DNA from: Helianthus annuus
Taxonomy: Eukaryota > Streptophyta > Magnoliopsida > Asterales > Asteraceae
Assembly (NCBI RefSeq): GCF_002127325.2
Contig: NC_035440.2
Span: forward strand, 74,712,464 to 74,776,463
Length of the DNA: 64,000 bases
Reading direction: 5' to 3'
Position numbers and translations under genes: made by a program. The notes below the pieces were generated by a model that was not told the origin of the DNA, made no database searches, and saw only the letters and a list, made by a program, of their open reading frames with translations. Positions 16,359-50,033 of the stretch are shown piece after piece; position 1 is the first letter of the stretch, and every line of letters starts with the position of its first letter.

Positions 16359-16401
16359 TGCCGGAGATCCCAAGTTTGTAATCGCGGATCAGGAATCGGC
16401 A
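16359..16401 (+). ncRNA. N1 post-gag hairpin, copy 1
   Basis: It starts two bases after the gag stop (16354-16356). The outer stem is TGCCG/CGGCA (16359-16363 with 16397-16401). The inner stem is GATCC/GGATC (16366-16370 with 16386-16390), with a 15-nt loop. Confidence 0.72.
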
Positions 16402-16468
16402 TCATTCTTAAAATTGATTTTGTAAAATGAATCTTAAAATTTTAAAATTTTACAGGATAAGTGTGACT

Positions 16469-16511
16469 TGCCGGAGCTTCCAGGTTGGTAATTGTGAAGC
16501 AGGAATCGGCA
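16469..16511 (+). ncRNA. N1 post-gag hairpin, copy 2
   Basis: The outer stem is the same, TGCCG/CGGCA. The inner stem at identical offsets is GCTTC/GAAGC (16476-16480 with 16496-16500). Relative to copy 1, two inner pairs have changed on both sides. Confidence 0.72.
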
Positions 16512-17995
16512 TCTTTGTTGGTAAAATGATTTTCTGTTGATGTGATATTCCTACATCTGGTATAGAGGTTTGATTGTGCATACTTGCATATGGTAAATCA
16601 GGGACATTAATTTGTACTTGATTTCCTACTAGTGATTGAATGAACAAGATGATGAACCCTAACTTACAAGTGGTAAAAACAAACTTATTTTCCGGAAAAA
16701 TCATTTTGATTAAAACAAACTTAAGTGTTTTGAAATCTTAATGAGAAAATAGTTTGTTGAAAGCGGGAGTTCTGATTGTTTATGCCAAGTGAATGGCGAA
16801 TTGAAGCGATTCGATATTGGTTGTCAACTTTCTGTATAGTTTGTTTTTCAAATTTTTCTTTAAATGTGTTTGCATTTTAGGGGGAGTAAAAATTTCAGAA
16901 AATCCAAAAACATAAGAAAATTTGAAAAAGTCAAAAACATGATTAAATCAAAAATGAGTTTTGTTGTGAAAAAGAGGAAATGATAGTACATCAGTGGACT
17001 ATCACACCATGCTAGAGATATGAAAAGTAAAAAATGTGATAAACAATCTCGCTGCGGATGTGCCAGTAGGTTTTTGAACAATCAGTAGATTGTGACGAGA
17101 TATAAACCTAAATTTCAAAATTGCTTATTTCGTGGGGAACATTTCTTGGATATATGGGTAACCCCCGAAATCTTGTTTGAAAGGTCCCTCTTTCTGAGAT
17201 ACTAGGTCTTTATACTCAGTGATATCTGGGATATTATTCCAGGACTTCTGCTGAATGGAAATTCTGACCTAGTCCCCGCATAATACTTTCCGCATTGCTT
17301 GAAATAAGCACCGCCCTCAGCATAAAAATGATAAAACATTGAAAAATGCTAATCATGTGTTGTTGAAGAAAAGATACTCTAAAGGGGACACACCTAAAGT
17401 CGAGCCGTCATCTCTCTGCTGAACGGAAGTTCTGACCTGAGCTCTCACGGTTTCGCATTTAACCCCTTTACAGATATCATCTGTGGTATACTCACCTGTA
17501 AGACTGAATATTGGGATCTGGATACGGGAGTATATTCAAGTGGTGGGACACGCGAATAAGTTTAAGTGCTTAAAAACATTAATATCGTATCTCGAAACAG
17601 TTGAACTTTGTGTGAGAATTTAAATGGATCAGTATACTGACAATCTAAGTGAATTGTTTAGAACTTAAAATGAAATGAAGCTTAACGGTGTTGATGATTT
17701 CTCTCATAAACTGATATGATCCTCTTACACAAACTCACAAAAAGATTGTGTGTAAATATTTCTTTACTGTATTTCCTTCAAAGTTTCAAAAATCCAAGAA
17801 GATTTTCAGTGTGTTTTAACATGAATTTTGAAAAATTTAAAAAGATTTTTGACAGCTGATATTGAAAAGCTGATTTTCAGAATTCCGAGTGCTAAACATG
17901 ATGATCATTTTGAAGGGGAGTTTGAGTTGGTGCCTATATCTTTATATTAAAATTGTGAAATTTACTTTGAGGTAGAGAATGTGCAGATAACCTGA
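16512..17995 (+). other. N1 conserved non-coding 3' region
   Basis: No long ORF is present. Blocks shared with N2-N4 are GGTAAATCAGGGACATTAA (about 16592), the region around the AGGGGGAG tract (16879-16886), a TGATAGT/ACTATCA hairpin (16981-17004), and ACTAGGTC (17201-17208) pairing with GACCTAGT (17266-17273). ACAGAT-ATC-ATCTGT follows near 17471, then a block ending in CGAGTGCTAAACATGATGA. Function is unknown. Confidence 0.8.
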
Positions 17996-18004
17996 ACATT
18001 CCGC

Positions 18005-18839
18005 TCGAGAACGGCCCAGCCGATCGGACAGGCCGTCCGATCGAGCAGGCTGTCTGATCGGAAAGCCTGGCCGATCGACCAGCCCTTTCCTCTTTTGGAG
18101 CCTATAAATAGGGTTGTCATTGTCATTCTTTCCACTTTTGGAAAGCTCTGACCGACCAACTCGTGCTCCTCTTCTTTTCTCAGATTTCTTCCGATTCCAG
18201 TAAGTTTTCACTCTAAATCTTGTACGTTTTTTATCAATACACACTCCCACACCTTTCTATCTTTCAAATCTTGATTTCTAACCGTGAAATCACCAAGATC
18301 TAAGTGTTCTTGGATGATGTCATCATGGTGTTCTTGAAGAACATCATGTTTTGGCCTCATTCCACCATGAATAGCTTGGATCTAACCGATTTCCACACAA
18401 ATAAACTAAAATCTATCATAGATCTAAACATTTCACAGTGTGAAGGATTGAAAGATGGATTTTCCGACTTTCTTTCAACTCTTTCACACTCAATGCCTTC
18501 AAACCAGTAGAAACGGAGCTTGAACCAACTCACTAATCATTCTAACAGTCATGTGGTTCAAGATTCGGATTCTAACTACGAGGTTCACCGATTTCGGGTT
18601 AAACACCAAACTGCCGTTCCGACCAACTCACTGGCCGGATTTGGGTGATTCCTATCCGAGCAGGGGAAACAAGTAAGAACGAAGGTTCCATGGTTCAACT
18701 CGTTGTCAAACTACCTCGATATAACGTCAAATAATCAAAACAGCCAAGTCTTAGACGAACAGGCCGACCAGGTCAGGAAGCTGACCGATCGGACAGGCTG
18801 TCGAATGGACAGACCTGCCGATCGAACATGCCAGCCGAT
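18005..18839 (+). repeat. G2 5' LTR, segment 1
   Basis: It matches about 42380-43213 of the 3' LTR. It contains a TATA box (18102-18111) and GATCGGACAG-type motif clusters (18005-18080 and 18750-18839). The last five bases, CCGAT, are the N2 target duplication. The apparent 68-codon frame at 18304-18510 is present in both LTRs but has no recognisable domain. Confidence 0.88.
18102..18111 (+). promoter_or_regulatory. Putative TATA box of the G2 5' LTR
   Basis: CTATAAATAG sits in GGAGCCTATAAATAGGG. The 3' LTR has the same box at 42476-42485. Confidence 0.6.
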
Positions 18840-19230
18840 TGTAGGACCGGTTTTGATGCCGTTCGATTGCGTAACGAACGTTCGACGTGCGGAATCCATG
18901 AACGTGCGTGACCGAACACACAATAACGTACTAGAAACGTGATTTTATTGAAGATATGACGTGTACAAGCAACGAGAATCACGTGGAGAGACTTTCTCTC
19001 TCTAGACTTTCTCTCTCTAGACTTGGATCTCTAAAATCTTCAAATGGAGCAAAAGTCTTAAACATTAAATCTAAGGATCCTATTTATAGGCCTTGGAATT
19101 AATGAGATTTCTCATTAATTACCAAAATGCCACCTTACTAATTCTATCTAAATATTACAGTAAGACTTGATTTCTTCGGTTTCAGCTACGAAATAGATTG
19201 ACGGAGGCGATAGACATTTATGCACTAACA
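18840..19230 (-). repeat. N2 3' LTR (391 bp)
   Basis: On the minus strand it reads TGTTAGTGCA...CGGTCCTACA. It differs from the right LTR by about seven substitutions and one extra copy of a 15-bp CTCTCTCTAGACTTT unit. It preserves the uninterrupted site where H1 sits in the other copy. Confidence 0.92.
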
Positions 19231-19247
19231 ATCTCCCCCTTGGATAT
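19231..19247 (-). other. N2 polypurine tract
   Basis: On the minus strand, ATATCCAAGGGGGAGAT directly precedes the LTR. N4 has the matching ATATCCAAGGGGGAGTC at 51998-52014. Confidence 0.88.
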
Positions 19248-20933
19248 TGCCGCAGTCAATCTCGTAGCGTCTTGACTTTCTCTTTCTCGAACAGAATCCC
19301 CGTGGATCTGTCTTCATGCTTCCGTTGCTCCCCCTTTCGGTAGTCTCTTTCTTCAGGCTCCCCCTTTCGTCAAGCTTCCGTGCTTTTAGGATCGACGCCT
19401 GACTTTCCGTAGCAACAGAATCAGAAACCTACACATCTCAAACACACAATTATAACAAACAATATTGAGATTCAAATTAATGAATCAACTAAACATTTGA
19501 GAATCTTTCACATTTAAAATTTAACAAAATTTGAAACATTCCAAATTCTGATTCAACATTTCAAACCAATTAACCAATCCAACTGTTCATCTTGTTTAGC
19601 CTTTGAGATTTTGAATATCAGCTTTTCAACATCAGTTGTCGAAAATCTTTTTGGATTTTTCATACTATGAAACATAAATGCAATGACAGAAATTAAATGC
19701 AGAAAAGAAATATGTACAAACATATTTTTGTGAGTTTGTGCAAGAGGATCATATCAGTTTTTGAGACATATCACCAACACCGTTAAGCTTTTAAACATTT
19801 CAAGTTTTAAACAATTTACCTAGATTGTCAGTATATTGGTCCACTTTAAATTTTCACACAAATTTCAATTGATTCGAGATACGATATTAATGTTTTAGAA
19901 ACTTGAACTTAAATGTGTATCACTCCACTTGAATATACTCCCGTATCCAGATCCCAATGTTCAGTCTTACAGGTGAGTATACCACAGATGATATCTGTTA
20001 AGGGGTATATTGCGAGGGCCGTGAGAGCTCAGGTCGATACTTCCGTATACGCAGAGAGATGACGGCTTCGACTTTCGGTGGGTCCCCTTTAGAGGATCTT
20101 TTGTTACAACAGCAGTGACTATCAATTTTATTGTTTTATCAACTTGCTGAGGGTTGCGCTTATATTTCAAAGCATTTTGCAGAAAGTATTATTCGGGGAC
20201 TAGGTCAGTATTTCCATACAGCAGAAGTCCCGGAATAATACCCCAGATATCACTGAGTATAAAGACCTAGTATCTCAGAAAGAGGGATCTTTCAAACAAG
20301 ATTTCGGGGGTTACACATATATCCAAGAGTAGTTACCCACGAATTAAGCAAGTTTGAATTTAGGTTTATATCTCATTTCAATTTACTAAGTGTGCAAAAA
20401 TCTACCGACACATCTGTAGTAAGATTGTTTATCACTTTTAAACATTACATATCTTTAGCGTGTTGTGATAGACCACTGATGTACTATCATTTCCTCTTTT
20501 ATGCAACAAAAACTCATTTTTTATTTTTCAATGTTTTTGACATTTTCAAATTTTCAAATTTTTTTAAAATTTTTCTCCCCCTAAAATCAAAATATGTTTC
20601 AATTTTGATTTTCTGAGAAAATTTGAAACAAACTGTACAAACTTGACAAATTGATGAGAATCACTTCAATTCTCTATCCACCTGGCGTAAACAATCATAA
20701 CTCCCCCTCACAACAAACTATTTTCCCATTATGATTTCAAAACACTTAAGTTTGTTTTAATCAAAATGGTTTTTCCGGAAAATTAGTTTTGTGTGTCATT
20801 TCATAAACTCGGGGTTTCATCACCTTGTTCTTCAAATTATCACTTGTAGGAAAGATGAATCAAATACAACTTAATGTCCTTAATTTATCTTTTGAAAGTC
20901 GAAATATCACTGAAGTGAATTTCTCAAGAAAGA
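19248..20933 (-). other. N2 conserved non-coding 3' region
   Basis: This is the counterpart of the N1 region. It includes ACTAGGTC (20199-20206) and GACCTAGT (20264-20271), the TGATAG/CTATCA hairpin (20466-20489), the CTCCCCCT tract (20575-20582) and the block near 20865 that matches GGGACATTAAGTTGTA. No supported gene. Confidence 0.8.
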
Positions 20934-20976
20934 TGCCGATTCCTACTCCCCAATTACCAACCTGGGAGTTCCAGCA
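20934..20976 (-). ncRNA. N2 post-gag hairpin
   Basis: Minus strand. The outer stem is TGCTG/CGGCA with one G-T pair. The inner stem is ACTCCC/GGGAGT, six pairs, at the same offsets as in N1. It begins 13 nt after the last gag stop base. Confidence 0.72.
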
Positions 20977-20988: not shown

Positions 20989-23025
20989 CTATTTGAATAG
21001 ATTCACCCAAGCCTGACGGTCCTTGGGTGATTTTGAATTCTTGTTCAACAATGGTGGAAAATTTGCATCATCCATTGTTAAACCTGAATTCTCAGATTTT
21101 ACCTCAACAAATGGCTCTTCTGGTTTTGACACACCAGAATCATTGCCTGCACATGGATTATCTGACTTTGACCTGTCAGATTCATTTCCTGAAGGTGGCT
21201 TGTCTGACTTTGACACGTCAGATTCGTCGCCTGAAGGTGGCTTGTCTGACTTCGACACGTCAGATTCATCGCTGACATGTGGCTCCTTTGTTTCCGAAGA
21301 AACAGATTCATTGCCACCAACTTTTACCTTCTTCTTTTCCTCTTTCGTCCTCAGATTTGTATCTGATGAATTCGTCTTGCTTGACTTTGCAGTCGAGGGA
21401 GTTGATTCATCAGAACTCTTATTCGATCTGTCCGGTGAACCCGAGGACAAAATCTTCTCCAGTTATTCTCTGGCCTTCTTTCTCTTCTTTCGCAGCTTGT
21501 CTTTTTGCCCTTGAGAAAGTTTCACTTTCTTTTCTTGAACTTTAGGTTCTTGAACCTTCTGCTCTTTGGGCTTGACCGTGACTGGTTTCTTTGCCAACTT
21601 CTGAGAATTAACCCTCAATCTTTCACTTGATTTCCTTGGGCAATCTCTGGCAATGTGACCTCTGATTTGACACTTATAGCATCTTCTCGATTCAAACCTC
21701 CAATTCTGGCAGTTAACAGCAATGTGTCCTTGATAGCCGCATCTGTAACACATTCTGTTATCGTACCAATCACCATTTTCACACCAAATGCTCAGATCAT
21801 AGCATTGTCTAGCTTTGTGGTAGTCATCATTCCTCTTGGAAGCTGGATTTGACTTTTGAGTACTGTGGTTAAACCTGCACCACTTACCAACTTTTTGTGA
21901 GTTTTGATTTTCAAATTTTTGTGGTTTTTTATAATGATTGGATGATTGAACTGATGAGCTTTTATTTTTGTTTTGAAAACGTTTAGAATTTTTAACATTT
22001 GTTTTTGTTCCACATTCTTCTTTACAGGTTTTTGCGTTGAGCATTCACCTTTTTCAGTAGAATGTAAAACAGTTTCTTGAAATTTTTCTTTTAATTTCAA
22101 AAATATTTTCTTTTTCTCATCTTCATCATCAGTTTTCTCATCACAATCTTCAATTTTGACTTTGTCAAAATTTGTGACATTGTCACTTATTGGAACTGAA
22201 TTAATCGGTTTTGGACATGGAATATTCAAATACTCTGAAGAAGTCACAAAACCTTTCAATTTCGTTTCAAGCTCGTTGATTTTCTTTCGAGCTTGCTCCT
22301 TCTTTTTCAAGTTGAATAATCTTCTGAAGATGAGAATTTATCATTTTTTGCTTTTCGATGTTGTTTTTGCTAAACACATCTCTCCCATCTTCAAGAATTT
22401 TTATTTGACTTTGAAAATCTTTTTCAATTTTTACTTTTTCATTTTCTAAATTTTTTATTTGAATTTTCAAATCATTTTCTGAATTTTTAAAATTTTTGTT
22501 TTCTAATGTCAAACTCTCTAAATCCCTCAAGAGTTTGGCATTTTCGGATTTCAGATTTTCACAATTTAAGCACTTCTCGGTCATCTTTTCAGCTTCAGCT
22601 TTCTTCTCAACCTTGATAGCTGAAATATCTTTAACCTGCTCCTCTACCTCATGAACAATTTCTTCAGATTTGACTTTTACTTCAACAGTTGCTACTTCAT
22701 GATTCTTCTCTCCTGAATCAGACTTCAATTTTCTAATCTTTTGAAATTCAAGTTCTTGAGCTTGAATCTTTTCAACGAACAAGCTCAAATTGAAACTATA
22801 AAATTCACCGTTCTTCTTCCAAGCTAACAAATACGTTCCCCACACATCAATTGGTAAAGCATTCGCCAATTTCTCAACCAACGTCTCATCCATTTTGCTA
22901 ATGTTCAAGCGCTTCATCTCTAAGTATAACTTAACATACCTTTCGATCAACTCATCAGTTGATTCTCCCTTGATACCTATAAAATTATCAAATTTGTTCA
23001 GTGCAGTATAAAACTCAGAATCCAT
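20989..23025 (-). pseudogene. N2 Gag-like protein, several frameshifts
   Basis: The likely start is the ATG at 23025 (MDSEFYTALNKFDNF). The N-terminal capsid part looks shortened against N3. Open pieces are 23025-22267, 22310-21792, 22044-21463 and 21450-20989, in shifting frames. Visible are a capsid-like block (DELIERYVKLYLEMKRL), a coiled coil with CLNC (22561-22572), two adjacent CCHC knuckles (CYRCGYQGHIAVNC and CYKCQIRGHIARDC, about 21640-21755) and a Lys-rich tail. These are followed by acidic repeats of SGDESDVSKSDKPP type (about 21145-21300), MDDANFPPL, and the end RQAWVNLFK. There is no enzyme domain, and the copy cannot make one continuous protein. Confidence 0.83.
21145..21300 (-). 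repeat. 42-bp coding repeats in N2 gag
   Basis: Four to five copies of a unit coding for a 14-residue block such as SGDESDVSKSDKPP occur here. N4 has two to three decayed copies (about 49840-49930). Confidence 0.75.
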
Positions 23026-25019: not shown

Positions 25020-25317
25020 TGTAGGACCGGTTTTGATGTCGTTCGATTGCGTAACGAACGTTCGACGTGCGGAATCCGTGAACGTGCGTGACCGAACACA
25101 CAATAACGTACTAGAAACGTGATTTTATTGAAGATATGACGTGTACAAGCAATGAGAATCACGTGGAGAGACTTTCTCTCTCTAGACTTGGATCTCTAAA
25201 ATCTTCAAATGGAGCAAAAGTCTTAAATATTAAATCTAAGGCTCCTATTTATAGGCCTTGGAATTAATGAGATTTCTCATTAATTACCAAAATGACACCT
25301 TACTAATTCTATCTAAA
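25020..25317 (-). repeat. N2 5' LTR, part 1
   Basis: It carries the TATA-like CTATAAATAG (25245-25254 on the minus strand). It is interrupted at 25317/25318 by H1 and resumes at 26954. Confidence 0.92.
25245..25254 (-). promoter_or_regulatory. Putative TATA box of the N2 5' LTR
   Basis: CTATAAATAG on the minus strand within the LTR. The same box appears in N3 and N4. Confidence 0.6.
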
Positions 25318-26640: not shown

Positions 26641-26953
26641 CTCTATCTATATATGGGTGCCGTCCGTTCTTACCGAATTGGGTTGGAAATTATTTTGTTA
26701 ATGTTAATGATCGCGTCTGTTTATTCATTGAAGTTTTTTTTTATCTAAATGAAGTGGGGTGGATATTATTGTTTTGTTAATAGTCGAGATGAAACGTTTT
26801 GTGTTAGTTTTTGAACGGTGTGAACACGTCGCGGGAGGAAAAAGTAAACGGTGTGAATATGTTTTTGATGATGTTTCGTTAGTTTTTGCAACGTAAGACG
26901 CAACCCTTTAAATGTAGAACGCAACCTAAGTTAGTATTTGTATAAGGGTATAA

Positions 26954-27031
26954 TATTACAGTAAGACTTGATTTCTTCGGTTTCAGCTACGAAATAGATT
27001 GACGGAGGCGATAAACATTTATGCACTAACA
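26954..27031 (-). repeat. N2 5' LTR, part 2
   Basis: It completes the LTR after H1 and ends at the CCGAT duplication. Confidence 0.92.
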
Positions 27032-28470
27032 CCGATCGACCGGGCCAGCCGATCGGCTAGCACATGGCCCCACATCTTGACAATTTCATGAAGTATGGTA
27101 TTGAACGAAGTAATGCCCGATCGAACGACGATTGGTAAACATTACTCTTCGGATCATGAGATACTATGCTTCCACACTTAATCGATTTTCAACTCGTTCA
27201 AAAGCGTTGGAGTGCCAACCGATCGAACGTACTGTTCGACCCGGTGACACCCTGCTAAGGACTAAATACTGAGGTACCTAACCGATCGGTTGAGCTAGCC
27301 AATAGAACAACCCGTTAGATCGATCGACCTGAAAGGTAAGGATACTTCAATGTTTTCAAATACTGCAACTAAAACTTCAAAAGTTCAAACCATCATACAC
27401 AAACACATCTTACTCATAGGAAGAAACAATCCACTCGAACAGCCCATCCGATCGAGCCTTCCGGCCGATCGAAAGGACTGTCCGAACGGCTTGTCCAACC
27501 AAACGAACCAGCCGCCCGATCGAACCTACTGTTCGATCGACCAGGCTGTTCGACCCACTGTCAATTGTTTGCATTTCCACATTACTCATCGTTATATCGT
27601 CGAACTATTCAGGCTAACCCTACTCCCCAGCGCTCCCTTCAATCCATCAATCAATCGCTGTGAGTATACTCGATCCCTTTTTGCCTTTAGCACTTTTGGG
27701 TGTCACATACGTTACTTATCAAAATCACAATCGAACACACTACTCACTTATTTGAACGCTAACCGATTTGCATGTATTACGTGACTAAATGAATGCTTGT
27801 TATTATGTTTACATATGGAATGTTGTCTACCTGCCTTAACAACGTAGTACTATAGTTTGGACTCAGCACCCGTTCACACAGGGGTTGTTAAGGACAATTA
27901 CTTGCATGGATTACGGTGGTAATCATGTATTGCGAACTGTCTCGGACAGTCAACCCGCAGTCATTGGTATCGATAGATCCATGTCGATAATTAACATGCT
28001 TCGTTTTCCTCTGTGTACGTGCTGGTTATGCGTAAATTATTCGAACTCTATATGCTATTATCAAACTTGTATGCTCACCTTTACATTATATGTATTGACT
28101 TTATTTTAACGTATGTGACAGGTGTTTAAGATGTTTGCTTGCTAGGAAAGCGAGGCTAGAATAAAGCTCTGGCGGCCCCAACAAATAGTTGTCTGTCAGG
28201 AGCAAGCGTCTAGGGCATAGTTATCTGTAGATCTTGTCCGGCTGGGTCTTAGGAGCATTTGAATAATATTTATGTTTGTATTAAATCTGAGTTGTCGGAA
28301 CAGAAAACTTGATTAGATGTTATCTGTAATAACTTGTTTTATTGTTTGGGATACGGTATGGGGCGTATCTTTTAACTGAATGGTACTGATAGTAGTTGTG
28401 GAAACTTCTGAACAATCTGTTTTGCTCAGTGCCATGCCCCGATGATTCCGCCATCGGTTGGGGTGTGACA
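27032..28470 (+). repeat. G2 5' LTR, segment 2
   Basis: It matches about 43210-44632 closely and ends GGGGTGTGACA. It contains GATCGAACR-type motif clusters at about 27030-27060, 27205-27330 and 27430-27560. ORFs at 27350-27784 and 27885-28109 also occur in the 3' LTR, as expected for any LTR sequence, and show no known domain. Confidence 0.9.
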
Positions 28471-31223: not shown

Positions 31224-31656
31224 TGTAGGATCGTGTTCTGACCCGATTGAGTCGTTCAGAGGCGTTCAACTACGTTTCAGGTGCGGAATTACAAGAAATG
31301 TAGGTAGAAACAGCTGAATCTTCACTAAAAATGCTGATTGTATTAATTATCACTCGATTACATGCAGTTCTTCACACCGGCAGCACTTCGGCGTGCAATA
31401 CAAGACATTCGTTATCTATGGTTTCGCTCAAATGGACTGCTATTTGTAGGCCAGATGGTTTCGCTTATATGGACATGTCCATATAAGCAAAACTACATGT
31501 GTCACATAAGCGAAACTTACACTCTATGACCATATAAGCGAAACCTCCCTACTAAACACATACAATCTCCAGTTTTCTCGTAAAACGAGCCCTAATCTAT
31601 ACAATACAATGTAAGACTCAATCCAAGACGAAGTCGACAGATGTAGTGTACCAACA
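31224..31656 (-). repeat. N3 3' LTR (433 bp)
   Basis: On the minus strand it runs TGTTGGTACA...GATCCTACA. It carries several AAGCGAAAC motifs. Confidence 0.94.
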
Positions 31657-31675
31657 GACTCCCCCTCAGATGTTG
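31657..31675 (-). other. N3 polypurine tract
   Basis: On the minus strand, CATCTGAGGGGGAGTC abuts the LTR. Confidence 0.88.
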
Positions 31676-33631
31676 ACGGAGTCGTCCATCGAGTCACGAC
31701 AATGCTATGTCTTCACATCTTCAGTCTTGATCAATATCTGGGCTTTTCTCTCTCTATCTTCAGACTCCCCCTCTCGAATTGTTGGCATTCTTTTGTTCTT
31801 CAGCAACTTCTGATACAGGATCGTTGTCTGGCTCTTCATGTTCCAAGATAACATGGATAAACCTGCACATACTTAACCCAGAAGTAAATCTTCTAAATTT
31901 AACAATTTGTAGTGCACCAACTCCTGACATAGTCAGATAACTTCCTCTCGTAACATATTCACAAACAACTATTCTCTCTCAATTCACACAAACATGACGA
32001 ACCATTTGATGATTTTGAAAAAAAAATATTTTGACAATAAAGACATACTCCCCCTCACAATAATGTCATCATGTTTAGCACTCGGAACTTTGAAAATCAG
32101 CTTTCCAATATCAGTTTGTCGAAAATCTTTTTGACTTTTTCAAAAGTTTATGCTAAAACACACACAAAATCTTCTTTTTTTTTGGATTTTCTAAAAAATT
32201 GATACCACTTGTAAAAACTAAGACTGACACCAATTGCAGAAATAACAAGATGTAAAACTAAAATATATACAGACATATTTTTGTGAGTTCGTGTAAGAGG
32301 ATCATATCAGTTTTGAGACATGTCACTTACACCATTAAGCTTGATTTCATTTTAAGTTCTAAACAATTCACCTAGATTGTCAGTATGTTTGTCCACTTAA
32401 ATTTTCACACAAACTTCAACTGATCCGAGATACGAATTAATGTTTTAAGCACTTAAACTTATTCGAGTGTCCCACTACTTGAATATACTCCCGTATCCAG
32501 ATCCCAATATTCAGTCTTAGAGGTGAGTATACAACAGATGATATCTGTTCAGGGTTAGATTGCGAGGGTCGTGAGAGCTCAGGTCGATACTTCCGTATAC
32601 GCAGAGAGATGACGGCTTCGACTTTTAGTGTGTCCCCTTTAGAGGATCTTTTGATTACAACAGCAGCGACTATCAATTTTATTGTTTCATCAGCTTGCTG
32701 AGGGCGATGCTATGTTTCAAGCATTTGCGGAAAGCATTATCCGGGGACTAGGTCAGTATTTCCATACAGCAGAAGTCCCGGGAAAATACCCCAGATATCA
32801 CTGAGCATAAAGACCTAGTATCTCAGAATAAGGGACCTTTCAAACAAGATTTCAGGGGTTACCTATATATCCAAGCAGTTGTTAACCCACATAATAAGCA
32901 AGTTTGATTTTAGGTTTATATCTCGTTACAGTATACTAAATGTGCGAAAACCTACTGACACATCCACAATGATATTGTTTATCACATTTTGATTTTCATT
33001 TCTTTAGCATGCTCTGACAGTCTACTGATGTACTATGATTTCCTCTTTTCACAACCAAAACTCGATTTTTAATTTTATCATGTTTTTGGCTTTTTCAAAT
33101 TTTCTAATGTTTTTGGATTTTCTGAAATTTTCTACTCCCCCTAAAATTCTAACACATTAAAACAATTTGAAAACAACTAAGTTCAAGACCCACTTGAACA
33201 CAAAACAAATTGTACAAAAACTTGACAACTGACATTGAATCACATCAATTCGCCATTCACTAGTGTGTAAACAATCAGAACTCTCCCTTTCACAAACCAT
33301 TTTCTCATTTAGATTTCAAAACACTTAAGTTTCTTTTAATCAAAATGATTTTTCCGGAAAATGAGTTTGTTTTTACCACTTGTAGATTACACATGGATTA
33401 AAATCGGGGTTATGGTTCATCATCTTGTCAGTTTTATGTTAGTAAATCAAGTACAACTTAATGTCCCTGATTTACCATGTTGCATTCAAGCAATCTTTGT
33501 ACCACTCGTAAAAATAACCACTTGTAAGATCATCAATCAATACCATTTGTAGGTATGACCAACAAATACCACTTGTAGGAATGAGTCATCTACATTAACC
33601 TTTTTACCACTTGTAAAATTATCCACAAATA
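31676..33631 (-). other. N3 conserved non-coding 3' region
   Basis: It holds the same blocks as N1: ACTAGGTC (32747-32754) with GACCTAGT (32812-32819), the 24-nt hairpin at 33015-33038 (one mismatch), CTCCCCCT (33135-33142) and the AATGTCCCTGATTTACCA block near 33459. An extra CTCCCCCTCT stretch lies near 31767. No gene is supported. Confidence 0.8.
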
Positions 33632-33802: not shown

Positions 33803-36800
33803 TTATGGGAAACAGACTTCCATCCAAGTCTTCTCAGACTTGATGGCTTTCAATTCTTGCGCAGTGGGGTTGTATGTTGCCTTTTTAGTTGCATAGAAAT
33901 CTTTAACCCCCTTTGCTTTCCCATTCAACATTTTCCCAAATATTTTCTTTACACTTCCATTAAATGTTTTCTCGACATCAAATTCTTTTTTCTCTTTGTA
34001 AAACTGATTCGATATTTCAATTTTACCAACTTTCTTTTTAACTTCTTCAAACTTCAGTGATGGAAATTCTTCATCATTCACTGAAATATTCACCTCACCT
34101 TGTGGATCTTCTGGCTTTGTGGAACCAGATTCATCGCCGACTTTCTCACTAACCTTTTTAGCAACCCACACTTGGTTGTTCTCAGCTTTCTGTTTGATGA
34201 CATTCTTTTTAGAACACTCACCGACCTCATAAGTTGAGTTTTCAAAAACTTTAAGTTTTTCGGTTGGTGGTTCAACATCAACAACCTTTTCTTTCAACTT
34301 CTGAGAAACTCCCTGTTTTGTTTTGGCATTTTTCTGACAGTTCCATGCAATGTGGCCAGCTTCATTGCATCTGTAACAGGTACGAGTTTCTTTTGGTTGC
34401 CACACTTCAGTTCCATTCTTTCTTTTATCAGCAAGAAACTCTTGATTTGACTGTCTCCAAAATGGTTTCTTCTGTTCATCTTCTGAACTTCCACCTGACA
34501 CAAATTCAGTTTTTGTTTTAGAATTTTTCATATTTTTATGATTTTCTGGTGGAATAAAGCCAAGTCCTTTCTTTTTGTAGATACGATTTTGGTTTGGTTT
34601 CTTTTGAGAACCCGAACCAGAATTGTAACCTTTTTTCTTGTTTAAACGTTGTTGTACTCTTGAGGTGTAAGGTTTGGGCTTTACATTACGATTTTCATCT
34701 TTTATTTCAGAAATATTAATTTCTATTAGTTTGAAAACCTTTTTTATCAATTCAGTTTTAACACCTCTTATTGAAAATTCTTTGTCATAGTATAATTTGT
34801 CTGAATCATTTAAAGTGTATGCTACCTCAAATGTTTCATCATCCAAATTTGCTTTCGATAATAAAAACTCTTTACTATAAGCCCGTTTAACCGACGACTT
34901 TGAACTGTTGACTGACGAATTTGACCCTCCAGACTCAGACTTTGACTCATCCTCATCAGTATCCAACACCTGATCGACCACCTTTTTGATTAACTCAGAC
35001 TAATGATCAGTGTCAGACGAGGTGAACGTGACATCAATATTTTTTGGTAATTCATCAGTTGTGTCGATTTTAAGCTTTATATTGACTGCTTTTTCAAGTT
35101 GCTCCTCGTTTGGTTTTCTAGGAGAGTACCCTTCCCAAACTGGAGGCGGACACTTGTTATAGCTAACAGTCAGTTTCTTACCACAGTCTTTCTTTTTCTT
35201 CGGCTTCTCATCTTGAAAAGCTTCTATTCCTGCAACAGTTGGGTAAATACGATCAATGAGATAATCAGAACTTGAATAACTTTGTAATAAACGTCTAATT
35301 CTCTCATTCTCGATCTTCTCAGTCTCCAACTCTTGCTTCCATTTAGCACTTTCTTCGATGTAGAAATTGATTTTTTTTTGCTTTGTCATCATGACTGCAT
35401 TCATCATCGTTAGTGCTTGTTCTCTTTCTGAGTTTGTCTTTTGGAGACCAGTTACTGTTTTGTTCAAGAGATCATAGGATTCTTTCACATAGTTGAGGTT
35501 GAACAGTAACTGCTCCTTCTTCTTTTCATACTCATCAATTATCTCATCTTTTGCTGCACATCCCTTGCAAGCTTCCAAACACTTCTCACAAGGCTTTATA
35601 ACTTCAACAATCTTTTCAACTTCGATTGCTTTCACTACTTCAACCACTTTTTCTGTCTCTATCACCTTCTCAGCTTCAGACAACTTTTCTTCTTCTTTCA
35701 CTTGTTCACTCTCAACATTCTTCTCAGCAACACTTTCAACACTCTCGTTCTGAATAACATTTTCAGATTTCATTTGTTGTTGTTCTTTAGCAGCTCGTTT
35801 CTCCTTCAGTTTCTCCATGCGTTCTGCAAAATAGAAATGAAAACTTTCAGGAGAAAGATGAGTTTTAGCAATATTGATATGTTTCTCTTCCTCATCATCA
35901 CTACTGCTATCAACTGGTGATTGATCAAATTGTACAGACTTTTCAGAATCAGCATCTGATAAACCAGAATCAGATGGTGTTTGATCAAATACAACTTCTT
36001 TTTCTGAGTTAACATCATTTTGTACACTCTCATATGTACTCTGTAAACTTTCATTAATACTTTCTGAACTTTCTTCAGATGTAACAGACTGTTCATCCAC
36101 ACTTTTCACCGTCTCTCCAATAGACTTCATCCAGGTGGCAAACATGTCTGGTTCTTTGACAATCTTTGCAATGAAAGCTTTGAACTCTCCCTTTTCATCA
36201 ACAAACATATCCCAGCTGAAGCCTTCAGGTAGTTGTTCATCATGTTGATCAACTAAACAGACTTTGCTATCGGGAGATATATAGTTGCTCCAATTGAAAT
36301 CCACCAAACATGCTCTTTTGGAATCCTCAATCTTCCTACCATGAGCCGTTTGTGAGTCTTGTGATTGACCAACCTGCTGATAAATGGCTTTCCGGTAGTA
36401 GTCATCTTTTCCGAACGGATTCTGAGCTCCACTAGCTTCTCTACCCTTGCACGCTCGTTTGAAATGACCTTTCTCCCTGCATCGAAAACAAGTAACTTTA
36501 GATTTATCAAAACCTAAAGTAGATACATGAGCATCAAGAAAGTCATTTCTCCCGGTAATTATTTTGAACTTTTCAGCACGTCTGAGTACACTTGCAAGAC
36601 ACCATTTGATATCCATTAATTCCATCTCTTCGGCGTCTATCTGATCGTAATCCTCCTTTTAAGCATAGGATTTCCGATCCGACCAGCTACAAGACCCTCA
36701 TAAGATAACAATACAGAACCAAGTCGAGCCATGTGGTCTTTTGTAGTTTCCTCAGAAAAACTTTGACCTTCTGGAAGATTTAAAGCTATGTTGCACTGAA

Positions 36801-37752
36801 TCACATAACCATTTCCTGTCTTTGTGCCTTGAGACTGAAAGCTTATGTTTGACTCTTTAGGATTGACACTTGGAAATGATGAAAATCCGCTGCTGCTTTT
36901 GCTTGAACCCTGATCAGCTTTTTCTGATGAATATCCAGCACTGAATGCAGTTTGAATTTTCGGACTTCTCTCATATTCAGAAACTGGAATGCTACCCTTG
37001 TAGTACATTTTTACATCCAGTTGACCACTCGGACTGTTCATACGAGCAATCTTCTGCTGTTCCAGATCTTGACTCTCGATCTTTTCTATAAACTGAGAGA
37101 TATTTAAATCATCATAAACACCCGTGTTTTTCAGAATCATCAAGTATGTTCCCCATTCTTTCTGTGGTAGTGCATCAGCAAGCTTGTCTACCCACTCTTC
37201 CCGGTCTTTTTCAATACTTAACATTGACATTGATCGCACAAGGTGGCAGTATCTCTCAATCAGCTTCTTTGTATCTTCACCCGGTAGACTGCTAAACAGA
37301 TCAAACTCTTTCTTAAGCAGCGCTTTCTTGCTCTTTATCATGTTCTCGCTTCCCTCAAATTTGACTCTAAGTGCATCCCAGATTGACTTTGCAGTTTTGT
37401 CGTGCTGTAGCAAAATGAAGATGTCTTCTTTGATCGCTTGCTGAAGCAGACTTATCATCATTTTCTCAGATTTGTACATAACCCGTTCTTGCTCCGTGAA
37501 TTCTGATAGATTTTTGGTAGTCTGCAATTCTGTTCGAGGCAACACGTATTTCTTCAAGATACATTCCCACGATCTAAGATGGTTTGCCTGAACCCAGTTC
37601 TCGAATCTGTCTTTCCACCCGTAATATTCTTCGATACTCATCAATTTCAGGGGCTTTTGGGTGGTTCTCGTCTCGTTTTCTATATTTATGGCTTGAACAA
37701 CGGCGGCTGGACCAGACGATGTTGCAAATGCGTTGTAGAACTCAGTATCCAT
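33803..37752 (-). pseudogene. N3 giant Gag-like protein (about 1,300 codons, two breaks)
   Basis: The ATG at 37752 opens MDTEFYNAFATSSG. The capsid-like domain (to about codon 300) has the Copia gag signature EYYGWKDRFENWVQ and KEDIFILLQ...IWDALRVKFEG. A one-base frameshift lies near 36655. The frame then runs from 36625 with knuckle CFRCREKGHFKRAC, an acidic Ser-rich region, and a coiled coil with EVVKAIEVEKIVEV and CEKCLEACKGC (35558-35590). A TAG (35002-35000) replaces Glu, then the frame continues to the second knuckle CYRCNEAGHIAWNC, NDEEFPSL and the end EKTWMEVCFP. It is about three times the size of a usual Copia Gag. Packaging and self-assembly are inferred. No protease, integrase, RT or RNase H motif is present. 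Confidence 0.9.
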
Positions 37753-38306: not shown

Positions 38307-38739
38307 TGTAGGATCGTGTTCTGACCCGATTGAGTCGTTCAGAGGCGTTCAACTACGTTTCAGGTGCGGAATTACAAGAAATGTAGGTAGAAACAGCTGA
38401 ATCTTCACTAAAACTGCTGATTGTATTAATTATCACTCGATTACATGCAGTTCTTCACACCGGCAGCACTTCGGCGTGGAATACAAGACATTCGTTATCT
38501 ATGGTTTCGCTCAAATGGACTGCTATTTATAGGCCAGATGGTTTTGCTTATATGGACATGTCCATATAAGCGAAACTACATGTGTCACATAAGCGAAACC
38601 TACACTCTATGACCATATAAGCGAAACCTCCCTACTAAACACATACAATCTCCAGTTTTCTCGTAAAACGAGCCCTAATCTATACAATACAATGTAAGAC
38701 TCAATCCAAGACGAAGTCAACAGATGTAGTGTACCAACA
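38307..38739 (-). repeat. N3 5' LTR (433 bp)
   Basis: It has the same length as the 3' LTR and carries a TATA box at 38523-38532 on the minus strand. The 3' LTR copy has CTACAAATAG at that place. Confidence 0.94.
38523..38532 (-). promoter_or_regulatory. Putative TATA box of the N3 5' LTR
   Basis: CTATAAATAG on the minus strand. Confidence 0.6.
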
Positions 38740-41829: not shown

Positions 41830-44632
41830 TGTAACACCCCGTGTTTTCGAATGTCAAAGTCAAAGTCAAAGGTTGACTTCTTTGACTGTAATTAGTTTAT
41901 TTTATGTTTTGTATTATGTGGAGTAAGTGTTGTCTAATCAAAGATCGAAAGTTTAATCAATGCGAACCGCTTAACGACCTTGAATAGCAGGAAGTAACAA
42001 TGCGATAAAGTTAATCAATCAATAGTCAAGCTAATCAAATCAAACTAGAAACTCGAATTATGCGAACTTTGGTATTACTATACGTGTGTGTGTGCCTTAT
42101 GTGTTACTTGTGCATGTTGACTTTACATTGTTATGTGTGGTAATCAATCAAATCAAATCGAATAAAAACTCGAAAGGCAATCGAACTCAATCACATCGAA
42201 TCGAAATCGAAGTCGGATAGTAATTATAGATGCTTATATGTTAGATATAGTGGTTGGGACTAAAAGTAATTTGAATAGGAAACCCTATCGTATTCGAATC
42301 GTCCTCAGTCGAAACCGAAATATCAAAAATCGTCGCCGAACACTTGAAACAAGCCGCTAATCGAACAGGCTTCCAGCCAGTCGAACGGCCCAGCCGATCG
42401 GACAGGCCGTCCGATCGAGCAGGCTGTCCGATCGGAAAGCCTGGCCGATTGGCCAGCCCTTTCCTCTTTTGGAGCCTATAAATAGGGCTGTCATTGTCAT
42501 TCTTTCCACTTTTGGAAAGCTCTGACCGACCAGCTCGTGCTCCTCTTCTTTTCTCAGATTTCTTTCGATTCCGGTAATTTTTCACTCTATATCTTGTACG
42601 TTTTTTATCAATACACACTCCTACACCTTTCTATCTTTCAAATCTTGATTTCTAACCGTGAAATCACCAAGATCTAAGTGTTCTTGGATGATGTCATCAT
42701 GGTGTTCTTGAAGAACATCATGTTTTGGCCTCATTCCACCATGAATAGCTTGGATCTAACCGATTTCCACACAAATAAACTAAAATATATCATAGATCTG
42801 AACATTTCACGGTGTGAAGGATTGAAAGATGGATTTTCCGACTTTCTTTCAACTCTTTCACACTCAATGCCTTCAAACCAGTAGAAACGGAGCTTGAACC
42901 AACTCACTAATGATTCTAACAGTCATGTGGTTCAAGATTCAGATTCTAACTACGAGGTTCACCGATTTCGGGTTAAACACCAAACTGCCGTTCCGACCAA
43001 CTCACCGGCCGGATTTGGGTGATTCCTATCCGAGCAGGGGAAACATGTAAGAACGAAGGTTCCATGGTTCAACTCGTTGTCAAACTACCTTGATATAACG
43101 TCAAATAATCAAAACAGCCAAGTGTTAGATGAACAGGCCGACCAGGTCAGGAAGCTGACCGATCGGACAGGCTGTCCGAATGGACAGACCTGCCGAACGG
43201 ACATGCCAGCCGATCGGCTAGCACATGGCCCCACATCTTGACAATTTCATGAAGTATGGTATTGAACGAAGTAATGCCCGATCGAATGACGATTGGTAAA
43301 CATTACTCTTCGGATCATGAGATACTATACTTCCACACTTAATCGATTTTCAACTCGTTCAAAAGCGTTGGAGTGCCAACCGATCGAACGTACTGTTCGA
43401 CCCGGTGACACCCTGCTAAGGACTAAATACTGAGGTACCTAACCGATCGGTTGAGCTAGCCGATCGAACGACCCATTCGATCGATCGACCTGAAAGGTAA
43501 GGATTCTTCAATGTTTTCAAATACTGCAACTAAAACTTCAAAAGTTCAAACCATCATACACAAACACATCTTACTCGTAGGAAGAAACAATCCACTCGAA
43601 CAGCCCATCCGATCGAGCCTTCCGGCCGATCGAACGGACTGTCCGAATGGCTTGTCTAACCAAACGAACCAGCCGCCCGATCGAACCTACTGTTTGATCG
43701 ACCAGGTTGTTCGACCCACTGTCACTTGTTTGCATTTCCACGTTACTCATCGTTATATCTTCGAACTATTCAGGCTAACCCTACTCCCCAGCGCTCCCTT
43801 CAATCCATCAATCAATCGCTGTGAGTATACTCGATCCCTTTTTGCCTTTAGCACTTTTGGGTGTCACATACGTTACTTATCAAAATCACAATCGAACACA
43901 CTACTCAATTATTTGAACGCTAACCGATTTGCATGTATTACGTGACTAAATGAATGCTTGTTATTATGTTTACACGTGGAATGTTGTCTACCTGCCTTAA
44001 CGACGTAGTACTATAGTTTGGACTCAGCACCCGTTCACACGGGGGTTGTTAAGGACAATTACTTGCATGGATTACGGTGGTAATCATGTATTGCGAACTG
44101 TCTCGGACAGTCAACCCGTAGTCATTGGTATCGATAGATCCATGTCGATAATTAACATGCTTCGTTTTCCTCTGTGTACGTGCTGGTTATGCGTAAATTA
44201 TTCGAACTCTGTATGCTATTATCAAACTTGTATGCTCACCTTTACATTATATGTATTGACTTTATTTTAACGTATGTGACAGGTGTTTAAGATGTTTGCT
44301 TGCTAGGAAAGCGAGGCTAGAATAAAGCTCTAGCGGCCCCCAACAAATAGTTGTCTGTCAGGAGCAAGCGTCTAGGGCATAGTTGTCTGTAGATCTTGTC
44401 CGGCTGGGTCTTAGGAGCATTTGAATAATATTTATGTTTGTATTAAATCTGAGTTGTCGGAACAGAAACTTTGATTAGATGTTATCTGTAATAACTTGTT
44501 TTATTGTTTGGGATACGGTATGGGACGTATCTTTTAACTGAATGGTAATGATAGTTGTTGTGGAAACTTCTGAACAATCTGTTTCGCTCAGTGCCATGCC
44601 CCGATGATGCCGCCATCGGTTGGGGTGTGACA
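41830..44632 (+). repeat. G2 3' LTR (2803 bp)
   Basis: It runs TGTAACACCCCGTG...GGGGTGTGACA and is the only complete copy. It has a TATA box at 42476-42485 and GATCGGACAG-type clusters at about 42355-42470, 43130-43220, 43380-43490 and 43585-43715. The right flank is TTTGA, and the matching left duplication was lost in the N1/G2 deletion. Confidence 0.93.
42476..42485 (+). promoter_or_regulatory. Putative TATA box of the G2 3' LTR
   Basis: CTATAAATAG, identical to the 5' LTR box. In a 3' LTR it could drive readout transcription into A1 sequence, antisense to the A1 ORF. Confidence 0.5.
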
Positions 44633-46252: not shown

Positions 46253-46643
46253 TGTTAATGCATTATCTGTCTATCGCCTCCGTCAATCTATTCCGTAGCA
46301 GAAACTGAAGAATTCTAAGCTTTTAGTGTTATATCTAGTTAGAAAGGCAAGGTGGCAATTTTGTAAATAATGAGATTTCTCATTATATCCCTTAGCCTAT
46401 AAATAGATCATTTAGTTGTAAAGTTTAAGACTTTTGGCTCATTTGGAGATTTAGAGATTTATCCTAGAGAGAGAAAGTCTAGAGAGAGAAAGTCTCTCTA
46501 CGTGATTCACGGCTTTGTACACGACATCATATCAATAGAATCACGTCATTAGTACGTTCTTGTGTGTTCGGTCACGCACGTTCACGGATTCCGCACGTCG
46601 AACGTTCGTTACGCAATCGAACAGTGTCAAAACCGATCCTACA
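46253..46643 (+). repeat. N4 5' LTR (391 bp)
   Basis: It runs TGTTAATGCA...GATCCTACA, with a TATA box at 46397-46406. It has two copies of the CTAGAGAGAGAAAGT unit near 46463-46495, while the 3' LTR has one. Confidence 0.94.
46397..46406 (+). promoter_or_regulatory. Putative TATA box of the N4 5' LTR
   Basis: CTATAAATAG, as in N2 and N3. Confidence 0.6.
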
Positions 46644-46645
46644 AG

Positions 46646-46658
46646 TGGTATCAGAGCT
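46646..46658 (+). other. N4 primer binding site
   Basis: TGGTATCAGAGCT, two bases after the LTR. Confidence 0.92.
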
Positions 46659-47649
46659 AGGAGCTCGATTGCGCTGATCAAACACATAGATTCGTACCTG
46701 ATTACATCGATTTCAGATCTGAATTTCATAGATTTCTTCATCTTTTTCATTCTTATCACGGTTTTCACTGAAAATAGTCAAATTGAACATGTTTTTACGG
46801 TTCAAAATTCCTAATTTTTTGACATGTTGTGCGAAAACACCTGATCTATAACCCTACCAAATTTCAGATTCAAACTCCTAGCCGTTTAGGAGAAATCGAT
46901 GTTTTTTGTTCTGAATTCACGTAATCAGCTAGGTTCGCTTATTTGGACATTCCAAACTTTGAGGTTCGCTCCAAAGGTCCGCTCATAGTGACATTATTTC
47001 GTAGTTCCGCTCATAGGTGTCACTCGTATAGGTCCGCTTATAGTGACATTAAGAGGTCCGCTCATTGTGCAATAGTTGAGGTCCACTCATAGGTGTAACA
47101 GTAGGTTCGCTCATTGAGACCATCTAGTTCCGCTCATATGGTCCAATAGGTTTTGCTTATTAGTCATCTCGGTGGTTTCACTTATAACTGTCATCGTCAT
47201 CGTATTGTCTGAACATTTAAAAGATTGTCGGCCCAATCACAAATTCAGATTTAAGTGTCGGTCATTTAATACATTTGAGATAACCAATGAATTGCATGTG
47301 ATGTTGTCGGAACTAGTGTTTGAGATTTCAGTTTGTCGGCAAAGTTGAGGTCCAATCAGATTAAAAGAAACATCGGCCCAATCATAATTTGTTTAAAATC
47401 TGAAATTGTCGGCCAGTTAAATCATTGTTTTTGTTCCATAATTGATCGGTCCAATCACACTTAATCATCATTACCACACATTTTAAAAGTGGTTAATTGT
47501 AAGGCCCAATAAATGAAGGTCCAATAATATAAAAACTGTCTCGTGAAGGGTTGTCAGGCACTAAATTCAAAAATTGCATGTGATTTAAAGTTGTGGTTCA
47601 ATAAAATTGTTGAGTGATTCTAAATTGTTTGACACGTTTAATAGAATTC
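46659..47649 (+). repeat. N4 leader with two motif arrays
   Basis: About 46930-47180 holds GTTCGCT / GTCCGCTCAT / GTTCCGCTCAT motifs, the N-family core. About 47225-47530 holds TCGGCCCAATCA / TCGGTCCAATCA motifs like those in the N2 leader. No gene is supported. Confidence 0.78.
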
Positions 47650-49977
47650 ATGTCACTTAACAAAGAAATTGGGGTCAAAATGTTTGATGAACAAGAAAAC
47701 AAGAATCTTGAAAATTTAAATAACTGGACTAAGGAATCTTGGTATGAGATGAGATATGATAAGGATGTTTATGTTAAAAGATTCGAAAATTTCTTATGTA
47801 TGAAGAATGAATCGATGGAGATGTTGAAAGAAATGTTTTATGAACTAATCATCAAGTTAGAAAAACATAAAATATATCATTCAAGAGATGAAAGAATTTC
47901 AAAATTTGTTGATGCTTTACCTTTGGAATGGGATAAATTTGTCAATGAACTGAAACGGGATTCTAGTTTATCACGCTTTGATTTAAGAAGTTTCATCAAT
48001 ACAATAACAAATCATAGGCTTTATGAAGATGCAGATAAAAGGAAATTATTGGATGAAATAAAAGAAGAATCAGAAAAGATAGATTTGAATGTAATCATTG
48101 AAATGAGAAAACGAATCAATGTGTGTCTTGCAGCAAAAAATGTTATGAAATATGATATTAAGAGGGGTTGTTATATTGATGAATATCTGAATCCTCTTGA
48201 TTTTGTTAAAATTTTCTGTACAGGAACATACAAGATGGAAACAAAGAAAGAATCTCATGATGGAAAGATGAATGAAAAATGCTCGAAATGTGAAAAATCA
48301 GAAGCAGACAATGTGAAACTCTTGAAGGAAGTGGAGAGTTTGACATTGGAAAACAAAACTTTGAAGATCGACAAGAAAGCTGATGATGAACAGATTCTGG
48401 AGTTACGCTTGAACTGTGAAAAACTGAAATCTGAGAATGATAAACTGTTAAATGATTTAAACAGTTTGACATCAGAAAACAAAATTTTGAAAGAAAATGA
48501 AAAAGATTTTTGAAAGCAAAAGAAAATCTTCAGAAGATGAAGATTTCTGGATAAAACTGGAAAACAAAAATCTGAAAGAAAATGAAACAAGATTTCAAGA
48601 ACAGTTAAAAGTTTTGGAAAATGAAAAATCTGTTCTTGAAAATCTTAAAATTGAAAATGAAAATTCAATCAAGTTCTATCTTGAAAGAATCTCTCAGCTT
48701 GAAAAAGAAGCTGAGAATTCAAGAAACAAGATTGATGAACTTGAAAAGAAATTGAAAGGTTTTGTGACTGCATCAGATAGTTTGAATTTTCCATGTCCAA
48801 AACCGATCAATTATGTTCCAATAAGTGACAATGTCACAAATTTTGACAAGGTCAAAATTGAAGATTGTGATGACAAATCTGATGATGAAAAAGAAAAAGA
48901 AGAAAAAAAACATTTTTGAAATTAAATGAAATGTTTAAAAATACTGTTTTACATTCTACTGAGAAAGGTGAATGCTTAACGCAAAAACCTATAAAGAAGA
49001 GTGTGGAACAGAAACAAAAAGATAAAAAATCGAAAAATTTTCAAAAAGAAAATAAAAGTTCATCAGATCAAGCATCCAATCACAATAAAAAATCACAAAA
49101 ATTTAAAAATCAAAACTCAAAAATAGTTGGTAACCAGTGGTGCAGGTTTGACCACAGTTCTCAAAAGCCAAATCCAGTTTACAGGAGAAGATGGGATGAA
49201 GATTCTTCAAGGACAAATCATTACAATGATAGAAAACAGAGAAATGGTGATTACCACAAGGCAACTCAATGCTATGATCTAAGTGTGTGGTATGAAAATG
49301 GTATACGATATGAAAGAGATAAGAGGTATGATAACAGAGTGTGTTACTCTTGTGGCTATCAAGGACACATTGCTGTTAACTGCCAAAGCTAGAGATTTGA
49401 AACAAGAAGATGCTATAATTGTCATATCAGAGGACATGTTGCCAGAGATTGCCCAATGAGATCAAAAGGAAGATCGAGGGATGAATTTCAGAAAATGGCA
49501 AAGAAACCAGTCAGTGTCAAGCCCAAAGGACAGAAAGTTCAAGAACCAAAAGTTCAAGAATAGAAAGTTCAAGAAAAGAAAGTAAAGCTTTCACAAGGGC
49601 AGAAAGACAAACTGAGGAAGAAAAGGAAGAAGGCGAGAGAGTATTTGGAATGGATTTTATCCTCGGATACAACAAGAAAATCAGAAAAGAGTTCTGATAA
49701 TCCAGTTTGCTCATCAAAGACTGACAAATCAAGCAAACTGAGTTCATCAGATACAAATCTGAGGACACCAGGTTAAGTAAGAAAGAAAAGTTCCTGGCAA
49801 GGAATTTGTTTCTTCGGAAACGAAGGAGCCACGTGTTGGTGATGAATCTGACTCATCAAAGTCAGACAAGCCACATTCAGGCAATGATTCTGGTTCGTCA
49901 AAACCAGAAGAGCCATTTGTTGAGGTAAAAACTGTCAAACCCAAGGCTGGTCAGGCTTGGGTGAATCTGTTTAAATG
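47650..49977 (+). pseudogene. N4 Gag-like protein, frameshifted
   Basis: The ATG at 47650 opens MSLNKEIGVKMFDEQ. The upstream in-frame ATG at 47614 is less likely. Open pieces are 47650-48513, 48497-48919 and 48916-49392, then a region with stops up to the end GQAWVNLFK and TGA at 49975-49977. Visible are a capsid-like block (LPLEWDKFVNEL), a very long coiled coil with CSKC (48280-48291), two adjacent knuckles (CYSCGYQGHIAVNC and CYNCHIRGHVARDC, with a stop between them at 49390-49392), a Lys-rich tail and acidic Ser-rich repeats. The N-terminal third is AT-rich and less like N1 and N3 than the rest. No enzyme domain is present. Confidence 0.84.
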
Positions 49978-49990
49978 AAAAACCCTGACT

Positions 49991-50033
49991 TGCCGGAGTT
50001 CCCAGGTTGGTAAGCGTGAAACATGAATCAGCA
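49991..50033 (+). ncRNA. N4 post-gag hairpin
   Basis: The outer stem is TGCCG/CAGCA and the inner stem GTTCC/GAAAC, each with one C-A mismatch, at the same offsets as N1. It starts 13 nt after the gag stop. Confidence 0.6.

Follow-up and report, generated by a model that had tools for sequence, protein, structure and literature searches.

A covarying hairpin beside the gag stop of Sirevirus-like, gag-only elements in sunflower, a candidate RNA signal

The window analysed here, a stretch of 64,000 nucleotides (nt) of Helianthus annuus DNA (RefSeq assembly GCF_002127325.2, contig NC_035440.2, forward-strand positions 74,712,464 to 74,776,463), holds four gag-only retroelements, N1 to N4, in which a small hairpin lies close to the gag stop codon. 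A first-pass annotation of this DNA described the hairpin as a covarying two-stem structure under selection at the RNA level, and our analysis upholds this for one of the two stems: selection on the pairing of the inner stem of five base pairs (bp) is well supported, by statistics within the window and by rows from a search of the genome, while the outer stem shows no double change at all. Judged from their sequence, the carriers are Sirevirus-like elements with long terminal repeats (LTRs) of the gag-only type known as TR-GAG, and the hairpin family is abundant, being present in thousands of sunflower element copies. As to function, we infer a cis-acting RNA signal that is read by a protein, most likely for packaging, and give this explanation a probability of roughly 40%.

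Six copies of the hairpin are present in the window. N1 carries a proximal copy at 16359-16401 and a distal one at 16469-16511 (both on the + strand; inner stems GATCC/GGATC and GCTTC/GAAGC, respectively), N2 a single copy at 20934-20976 (- strand; ACTCC/GGAGT), N3 a distal copy at 33632-33674 (- strand; GCTTC/GAAGC, with two outer-stem mismatches) and a proximal one at 33747-33788 (- strand; GATCC/GGATC), and N4 a single copy at 49991-50033 (+ strand; GTTCC/GAAAC, with a single C.A in each of its two stems). Five of these were already correctly placed and the N3 proximal copy was off by one base; its loop is indeed one base shorter, and the duplication in N1 and N3, with a GATCC proximal and a GCTTC distal copy, was located in both elements. 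Most copies span 43 nt and combine a covarying stem of 5 bp with a loop of 15 nt, and variable sites among the six amount to 6 of 10 in the inner stem, 2 of 8 in the internal loop and 6 of 15 in the apical loop. A covariance model built from the six copies recovered all of them when run on the window (E <= 4.8e-21), and this search of the window yielded no convincing seventh copy, the next best match having an E of 0.017. Genome copies of the N4 hairpin type read GTTCC/GGAAC, and, judging by its letters, the copy in N4 is apparently a decayed representative of that type. No Rfam family matched the window at its gathering score, and a tRNA identity, considered because the loop resembles a D-loop, was rejected, as no tRNAs were found in the window.

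Among the six copies, three of the five inner-stem pairs have changed on both sides (four double changes by count, of the paired kind), and 29 of the 30 cells are paired, the remaining one being a C.A. The observed helix score was reached by 0 of 6,000 simulated nulls on each of three trees; by a cruder count on the same nulls, at least three doubly changed pairs per helix, the corresponding numbers were 16, 21 and 13 of 6,000. In an alignment of the four 3' regions (1,719 columns), the inner stem is the sole 5-bp Watson-Crick helix with three doubly changed pairs, a level that 0 of 400 column shuffles attained. When G.U pairs are allowed, 10-11 of 400 shuffles equal the inner-stem level and one other helix, on the gap side, scores higher; a smaller shuffle run of the aligned 3' regions gave 2 of 30.

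The window's own genome (3.0 Gb) was searched with a pattern in which the loop and internal-loop letters were fixed and all ten inner-stem letters were free, giving 4,889 matches against 0 for the reversed control. Stem letters are known for the rows listed, the whole-genome totals carrying none. Among the 100 rows listed first, 91 are perfect Watson-Crick stems, of five perfect types, three have one G.U and six one mismatch. A looser pattern (up to two mismatches) gave 25,885 matches against 2,160 for its control, and its first 100 rows, all of them without mismatch, comprise 93 perfect stems, four with G.U and three with a mismatch. Both lists come from contig C1 only, with 36 places common to both by eye. 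Identical rows were merged before counting, and for the counts of sequence contexts given below, matches less than 60 bases from the start of a locus and contexts shorter than 160 bases were excluded. The two overlapping lists contain 58 distinct 33-mers, 43 of them perfect, six with one G.U and nine with one mismatch; re-dealing the 3' arms among these gave a mean of 11.7 perfect stems and a maximum of 21 in 2,000 trials, and with the partner slid by 1-4 positions, pairing (0.97 in register) did not exceed 0.55 and doubly changed cells (36 in register) numbered no more than five. The GATCC, ACTCC, GCTTC and GTTCC types each lie one pair from GCTCC/GGAGC, and GCTCC/GGAGT, found in two rows, is the G.U intermediate between the latter and ACTCC/GGAGT. 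Because the rows come from one contig and many are of recent shared ancestry, the independent events behind them are few. Exact matches to the hairpin pattern were absent from viral contigs and from prokaryote genome contigs.

The outer stem shows no such record, with zero double changes in the six copies, 34 distinct rows, 63 distinct contexts and 40 distinct 43-mers, and the covariation once ascribed to it is not confirmed. In the six copies it has one G.U and mismatches at three pairs. Counting the first stem base as 0, 19 of the 63 distinct contexts have C-A or A-A at pair 0-42, and because this pair is so often absent we describe the outer stem as one of about 4 bp with a constant G.U. 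Hairpins occur singly or in arrays of two or four: two are found in N1, N3 and several other loci, and four stand at C1:13186527-13186895 (L077, L078) with a spacing of 112 nt, three of them GATCC-like and one GCTTC.

The hairpin keeps close company with the end of gag. The gag stop lies 2 nt upstream of it in N1 (TGA, 16354-16356, + strand), 12 nt upstream in N2 (TAG, 20989-20991, - strand) and N4 (TGA, 49976-49978, + strand), and 14 nt upstream in N3 (TAA, 33803-33805, - strand), the last of these falling just outside the range of 2 to 13 nt given before. In the contexts examined, a stop was assigned where at least 40 open codons precede it, as in 30 of 48 contexts; 12 of the 18 contexts without a stop by this rule are distal copies. 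The first base of the stop lies 13-17 nt ahead of the hairpin in 26 of the 30 assignable contexts, the other four standing at -5 (N1), -6, -28 and -32. TAA, TAG and TGA are all used, and relative to the hairpin these stops fall in each of the three frames; therefore closeness is kept and a readthrough frame is not, which rules out readthrough into a conserved downstream frame. None of 4,011 candidate proteins reads through the hairpin, and 12 of 13 proteins with a gag end terminate within about one residue of it, the exception being P0049. A second stop 10 nt past the gag stop, a feature described in some Sireviruses, is present in N1, N2 and N4 and is inconstant across loci, and was set aside as a shared feature; in N1 the earlier of the two stops is out of the gag frame.

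The hairpin heads a noncoding 3' module that is common to elements whose gags can scarcely be aligned. In the window, the alignment of all four elements runs on past the hairpin through the start of the linker, with insertions in N1 and N3. Between the N1/N3 and N2/N4 gag types, identity per 200-nt bin is 0.35-0.54 over the last kilobase of gag DNA, whereas bins from the hairpin onward are mostly at 0.65-0.90, with the exception of the N3-N4 bin 0-200 (0.42) and the 3' bins of N2-N3 and N3-N4 (0.47-0.59). In the same bins the linker reaches 0.77-0.92 against 0.66-0.79 for gag in the N1-N3 pair, and 0.70-0.90 against 0.40-0.52 in N1-N2. A linker match is found downstream of the hairpin in 45 of 49 fetched loci (26 of 30 and 19 of 19 for the two patterns). 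No pol was seen downstream in these 49 loci, as judged from the longest frames, five of which were scanned against Pfam, an approach that short or broken pieces could escape, and in 47 loci the longest downstream open frame is at most 131 amino acids (aa). The 212-aa downstream frame of L043 matches DUF4283 (the L044 frame is of the same length), the four other scanned frames being without Pfam match; L042-L044 run into another insertion, the source of the DUF4283 match in L043, and L046 runs into sequence resembling the window's element at 38.8-41.7 kb (L059), gypsy-like by our reading. Within N2, N3 and N4, no open reading frame (ORF) of at least 150 aa lies between gag and the 3' LTR.

Some further observations concern this module. 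Similar open frames of 95-131 aa occur in the linker of L035, L036, L038, L051, L068 and L076, and the three that were scanned have no Pfam match. At L070 (C1:5320973) and L071 (C1:5345209) a long upstream frame, unaligned to the window gags, ends before the hairpin and may represent a third gag type carrying the module. Two stretches of the N1 linker, 17187-17286 (z -5.1) and 16590-16693 (z -3.6), fold better than column shuffles and are possible additional RNA structures; in one of the two fold scans the hairpin's own window ranks 15th of 68 (z -2.4). Because the fold signal of the linker is equal in sense and antisense, we make no claim as to strand.

The carriers were compared with Sireviruses by their sequence marks. 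A terminal AGGGGGAG tract, which is a Sirevirus mark, begins 10 bp before the 3' LTR in N2, N3 and N4, and linker copies of AGGGGGAG number five in N2, four each in N3 and N4, and one in N1, which has no 3' LTR. At the 5' LTR junction all four elements read CA/AGTGG/TATCAGAGC, a primer site of tRNA-Met type. The Sirevirus junction, as given in PMC2829016, is CA/ATTGG or CA/AGTGG followed by TATCAGAGC; the other marks named there are an AT/TG attachment site, an inverted repeat around the junction of polypurine tract (PPT) and 3' LTR, a large gag that has a CCHC knuckle and a coiled coil, and LTRs with a mean of 1.28 kb. In our elements the attachment site is AT/TG in N2 and TC/TG in N3 and N4, and an inverted repeat as good as that at the PPT/3' LTR junction arose in 0 of 500 shuffles for N2, 3 of 500 for N4 and 30 of 500 for N3. 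CCHC knuckles are found in the gag of all four elements, and the N3 gag matches a copia-type gag family; the capsid parts of N2 and N4 have no Pfam match, that of N2 being 48% alike to N3 over 95 aa. The LTRs, at about 0.38-0.43 kb, are short against the Sirevirus mean of 1.28 kb, which is a mean and no strict criterion. The elements bear most of the Sirevirus marks examined, save the short LTRs and the N3 and N4 attachment site.

The elements also resemble TR-GAGs, which the accessible text of PMC9784723 describes, sunflower included, as two LTRs flanking a single gag coding region. The definition by two LTRs, a target-site duplication and gag only fits N2, N3 and N4, whose 5-bp target-site repeats are ATCGG, AAAGT and CTCTT, respectively; the RNA hairpin and the shared 3' module, unmentioned in that text, set them apart from its account. 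Relatives of the N3 gag are nearly all Helianthus-named among the 120 listed of 325, apart from the nameless P0078 and from P0082, and those of Helianthus reach 1,291 aa; none was found in viral contigs. P0082, labelled Salmonella enterica, matches 46% of the N3 gag query at 77% identity and comes from a 1,364-base contig, and its label is probably the result of contamination.

The first-pass annotation knew of no described element like this hairpin, a view overtaken by two accounts already in print: PMC2829016 mentions that Sireviruses have a highly conserved inverted repeat where gag meets pol, and PMC5009743 a 27-nt motif with a possible 11-bp stem, covariant nucleotides and a 4-nt loop. 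By these descriptions, the likeness lies in the place at the gag end, the Sirevirus-like carrier, the covarying stem and the occurrence in several elements, and the difference in the pol not seen downstream, the tandem copies and the usual 43-nt geometry. No stem of 11 bp with a 4-nt loop recurs at one fixed position by the end of gag across the four elements; the inner part of N2, where 10 of 11 positions pair around a 3-nt loop within 25 nt, comes near the Sirevirus shape and is unlike the other copies. Both papers cite earlier work on the Sirevirus stem-loop, presumably that of Gao et al. (2003). Among the papers listed in literature searches, which covered few subscription papers, no description of this hairpin in gag-only elements came up.

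To explain these findings, we favour a cis-acting hairpin that opens the noncoding 3' module and whose stem would present unpaired letters to a protein that reads them. The most likely reader would be Gag, either the element's own or its partner's, and the hairpin could in this way help to single these RNAs out to be packaged, and to be mobilised by partner enzymes, while the gag stop nearby would keep translating ribosomes off the structured module. For gag-only and other non-autonomous plant LTR elements, a covarying hairpin in thousands of copies offers a concrete candidate signal for the entry of RNA into particles. A gag-boundary stem may, moreover, stay selected without pol, which bears on the role of the Sirevirus stem-loop. 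We are more hesitant about a wider claim, which we consider rather doubtful: that of a new class of protein-read cis signal, in which one hairpin code, made of a free stem and a recurrent loop and amplified in tandem, would head a mobile 3' module and select the RNAs of non-autonomous plant elements with differing gags for shared particles. In the hunt for an autonomous partner, 150 Pol_BBD places were scored.

Several points weigh against a packaging signal of this kind. The packaging signals of Ty1 lie near its 5' end, and we found no binding, packaging or expression data for the elements studied here. The constancy of the loop and internal loop was imposed by the search patterns and is hence no evidence, and the single-change deviants, six G.U against five sense C.A, show no strand preference. 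Taken singly, the six copies have unremarkable folding energies (z -1.5 to +0.8), and the N3 distal and N4 copies do not adopt the two-stem form. N4 has the least LTR divergence (Kimura two-parameter distance, K2P, 0.008) yet carries two C.A mismatches, which are absent from L060 and L067-L069. In the N2-N4 pair the linker, at 0.80-0.89 apart from a single 3' bin at 0.46, has no higher identity than gag (0.79-0.88), and sharing of the module may stem from recombination instead of constraint.

One alternative is that the hairpin is an idle relic of the Sirevirus gag/pol-boundary stem-loop, which would have served pol recoding or internal entry until pol was lost. The Sirevirus marks of the carriers, the same place at the gag end and the covariation reported for Sireviruses in PMC2829016 and PMC5009743 all agree with it, and so does the shape of N2, near the reported 27 nt, 11 bp and 4-nt loop. 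However, an idle stem should decay, yet 91 and 93 of the 100 rows in the two lists are perfect, and the N2 geometry is absent from the other copies. The alignment of the window elements continues past the hairpin into the linker, and if pol was lost only once, the different stems arose without it; the stops in three frames leave no readthrough frame. We consider such a relic unlikely, and a pol-recoding role is likewise unlikely for the copies examined because pol was seen downstream in none of the 49 loci.

By analogy with Rous sarcoma virus (RSV), the hairpin might instead be an element of the 3' untranslated region (UTR) that acts on termination or shields the gag mRNA from nonsense-mediated decay (NMD). 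PMC2925335 describes an RSV stability element, of 155 nt in its minimal form, directly after the gag stop and with a role in NMD; our hairpin is like it in lying directly past the gag stop of a retroelement RNA whose 3' UTR is long (in N2-N4 the hairpin and the 3' LTR are about 1.7-2 kb apart), and unlike it in length and in that RSV is an animal retrovirus in which the NMD role was assayed. A readthrough structure just past the stop of turnip crinkle virus conferred NMD resistance, according to PMC6277124, whereas a stable hairpin at the start of the viral 3' UTR abolished it. With distal and tandem copies lying away from the stop, and with the minimal RSV element as long as it is, a part in termination or NMD seems improbable to us.

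We also considered a process at the DNA level, in which quasi-palindrome correction by template switching, during reverse transcription or repair, keeps the arms complementary with no RNA function. The arms are short and close together, the deviants lack strand preference, and the one-sided changes among the listed copies could be repaired in this way. Against this, no other 5-bp Watson-Crick helix of the aligned 3' region has three doubly changed pairs, the changed pairs 8 and 10 lie on either side of a pair that hardly varies and do not form one copied block, and the outer stem is without paired change, so that we hold this explanation to be very unlikely.

Least credible of all is a splicing signal beside an intron end used in element transcripts. 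Three things would point to it: a T-rich tract, with ACAG or GCAG at its end, ahead of many distal copies; the annotated P0049 (Helianthus anomalus), which continues beyond the end of gag as a peptide matching the distal hairpin; and the spliced transcripts of some sunflower LTR elements (PMC7730604). But P0049 is a gene model only, single copies lack that context, and the covariation is in the stem and not in the splice site.

Some remaining features of the window complete the picture of the carriers. The noncoding N1 linker occupies 16512-17924 (+ strand), and N1, for which no 3' LTR was found, is taken as truncated. The other linkers, all with AGGGGGAG copies, lie at 19241-20933 in N2 (- strand; terminal tract from 19240), 31667-33631 in N3 (- strand; tract from 31666) and 50034-52004 in N4 (+ strand; tract from 52005). 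The gag region of N3 (33803-37752, - strand), with matches to Retrotran_gag_2 and CCHC, is split into several ORFs. LTRs, with a divergence of K2P 0.008-0.019 in N2-N4, were placed at 31224-31656 (3') and 38307-38739 (5', followed by the primer-site junction) in N3 (- strand), at 46253-46643 (5') and 52015-52390 (3') in N4 (+ strand), and at 18840-19230 (3') in N2 (- strand), the 5' LTR of which is in two pieces, at about 25020-25317 and 26952-27031, with an insertion between. N2 is nested in a repeat (18009-18839 and 27044-28470), an uninterrupted copy of which, 97% alike, is found at 42383-44632. Towards the end of the window there are a tandem repeat of about 206 bp at 61312-62018, its copies 78-79% alike, and a near-perfect palindrome of about 508 bp at 63484-63991, 92.7% identical to its own reverse complement.

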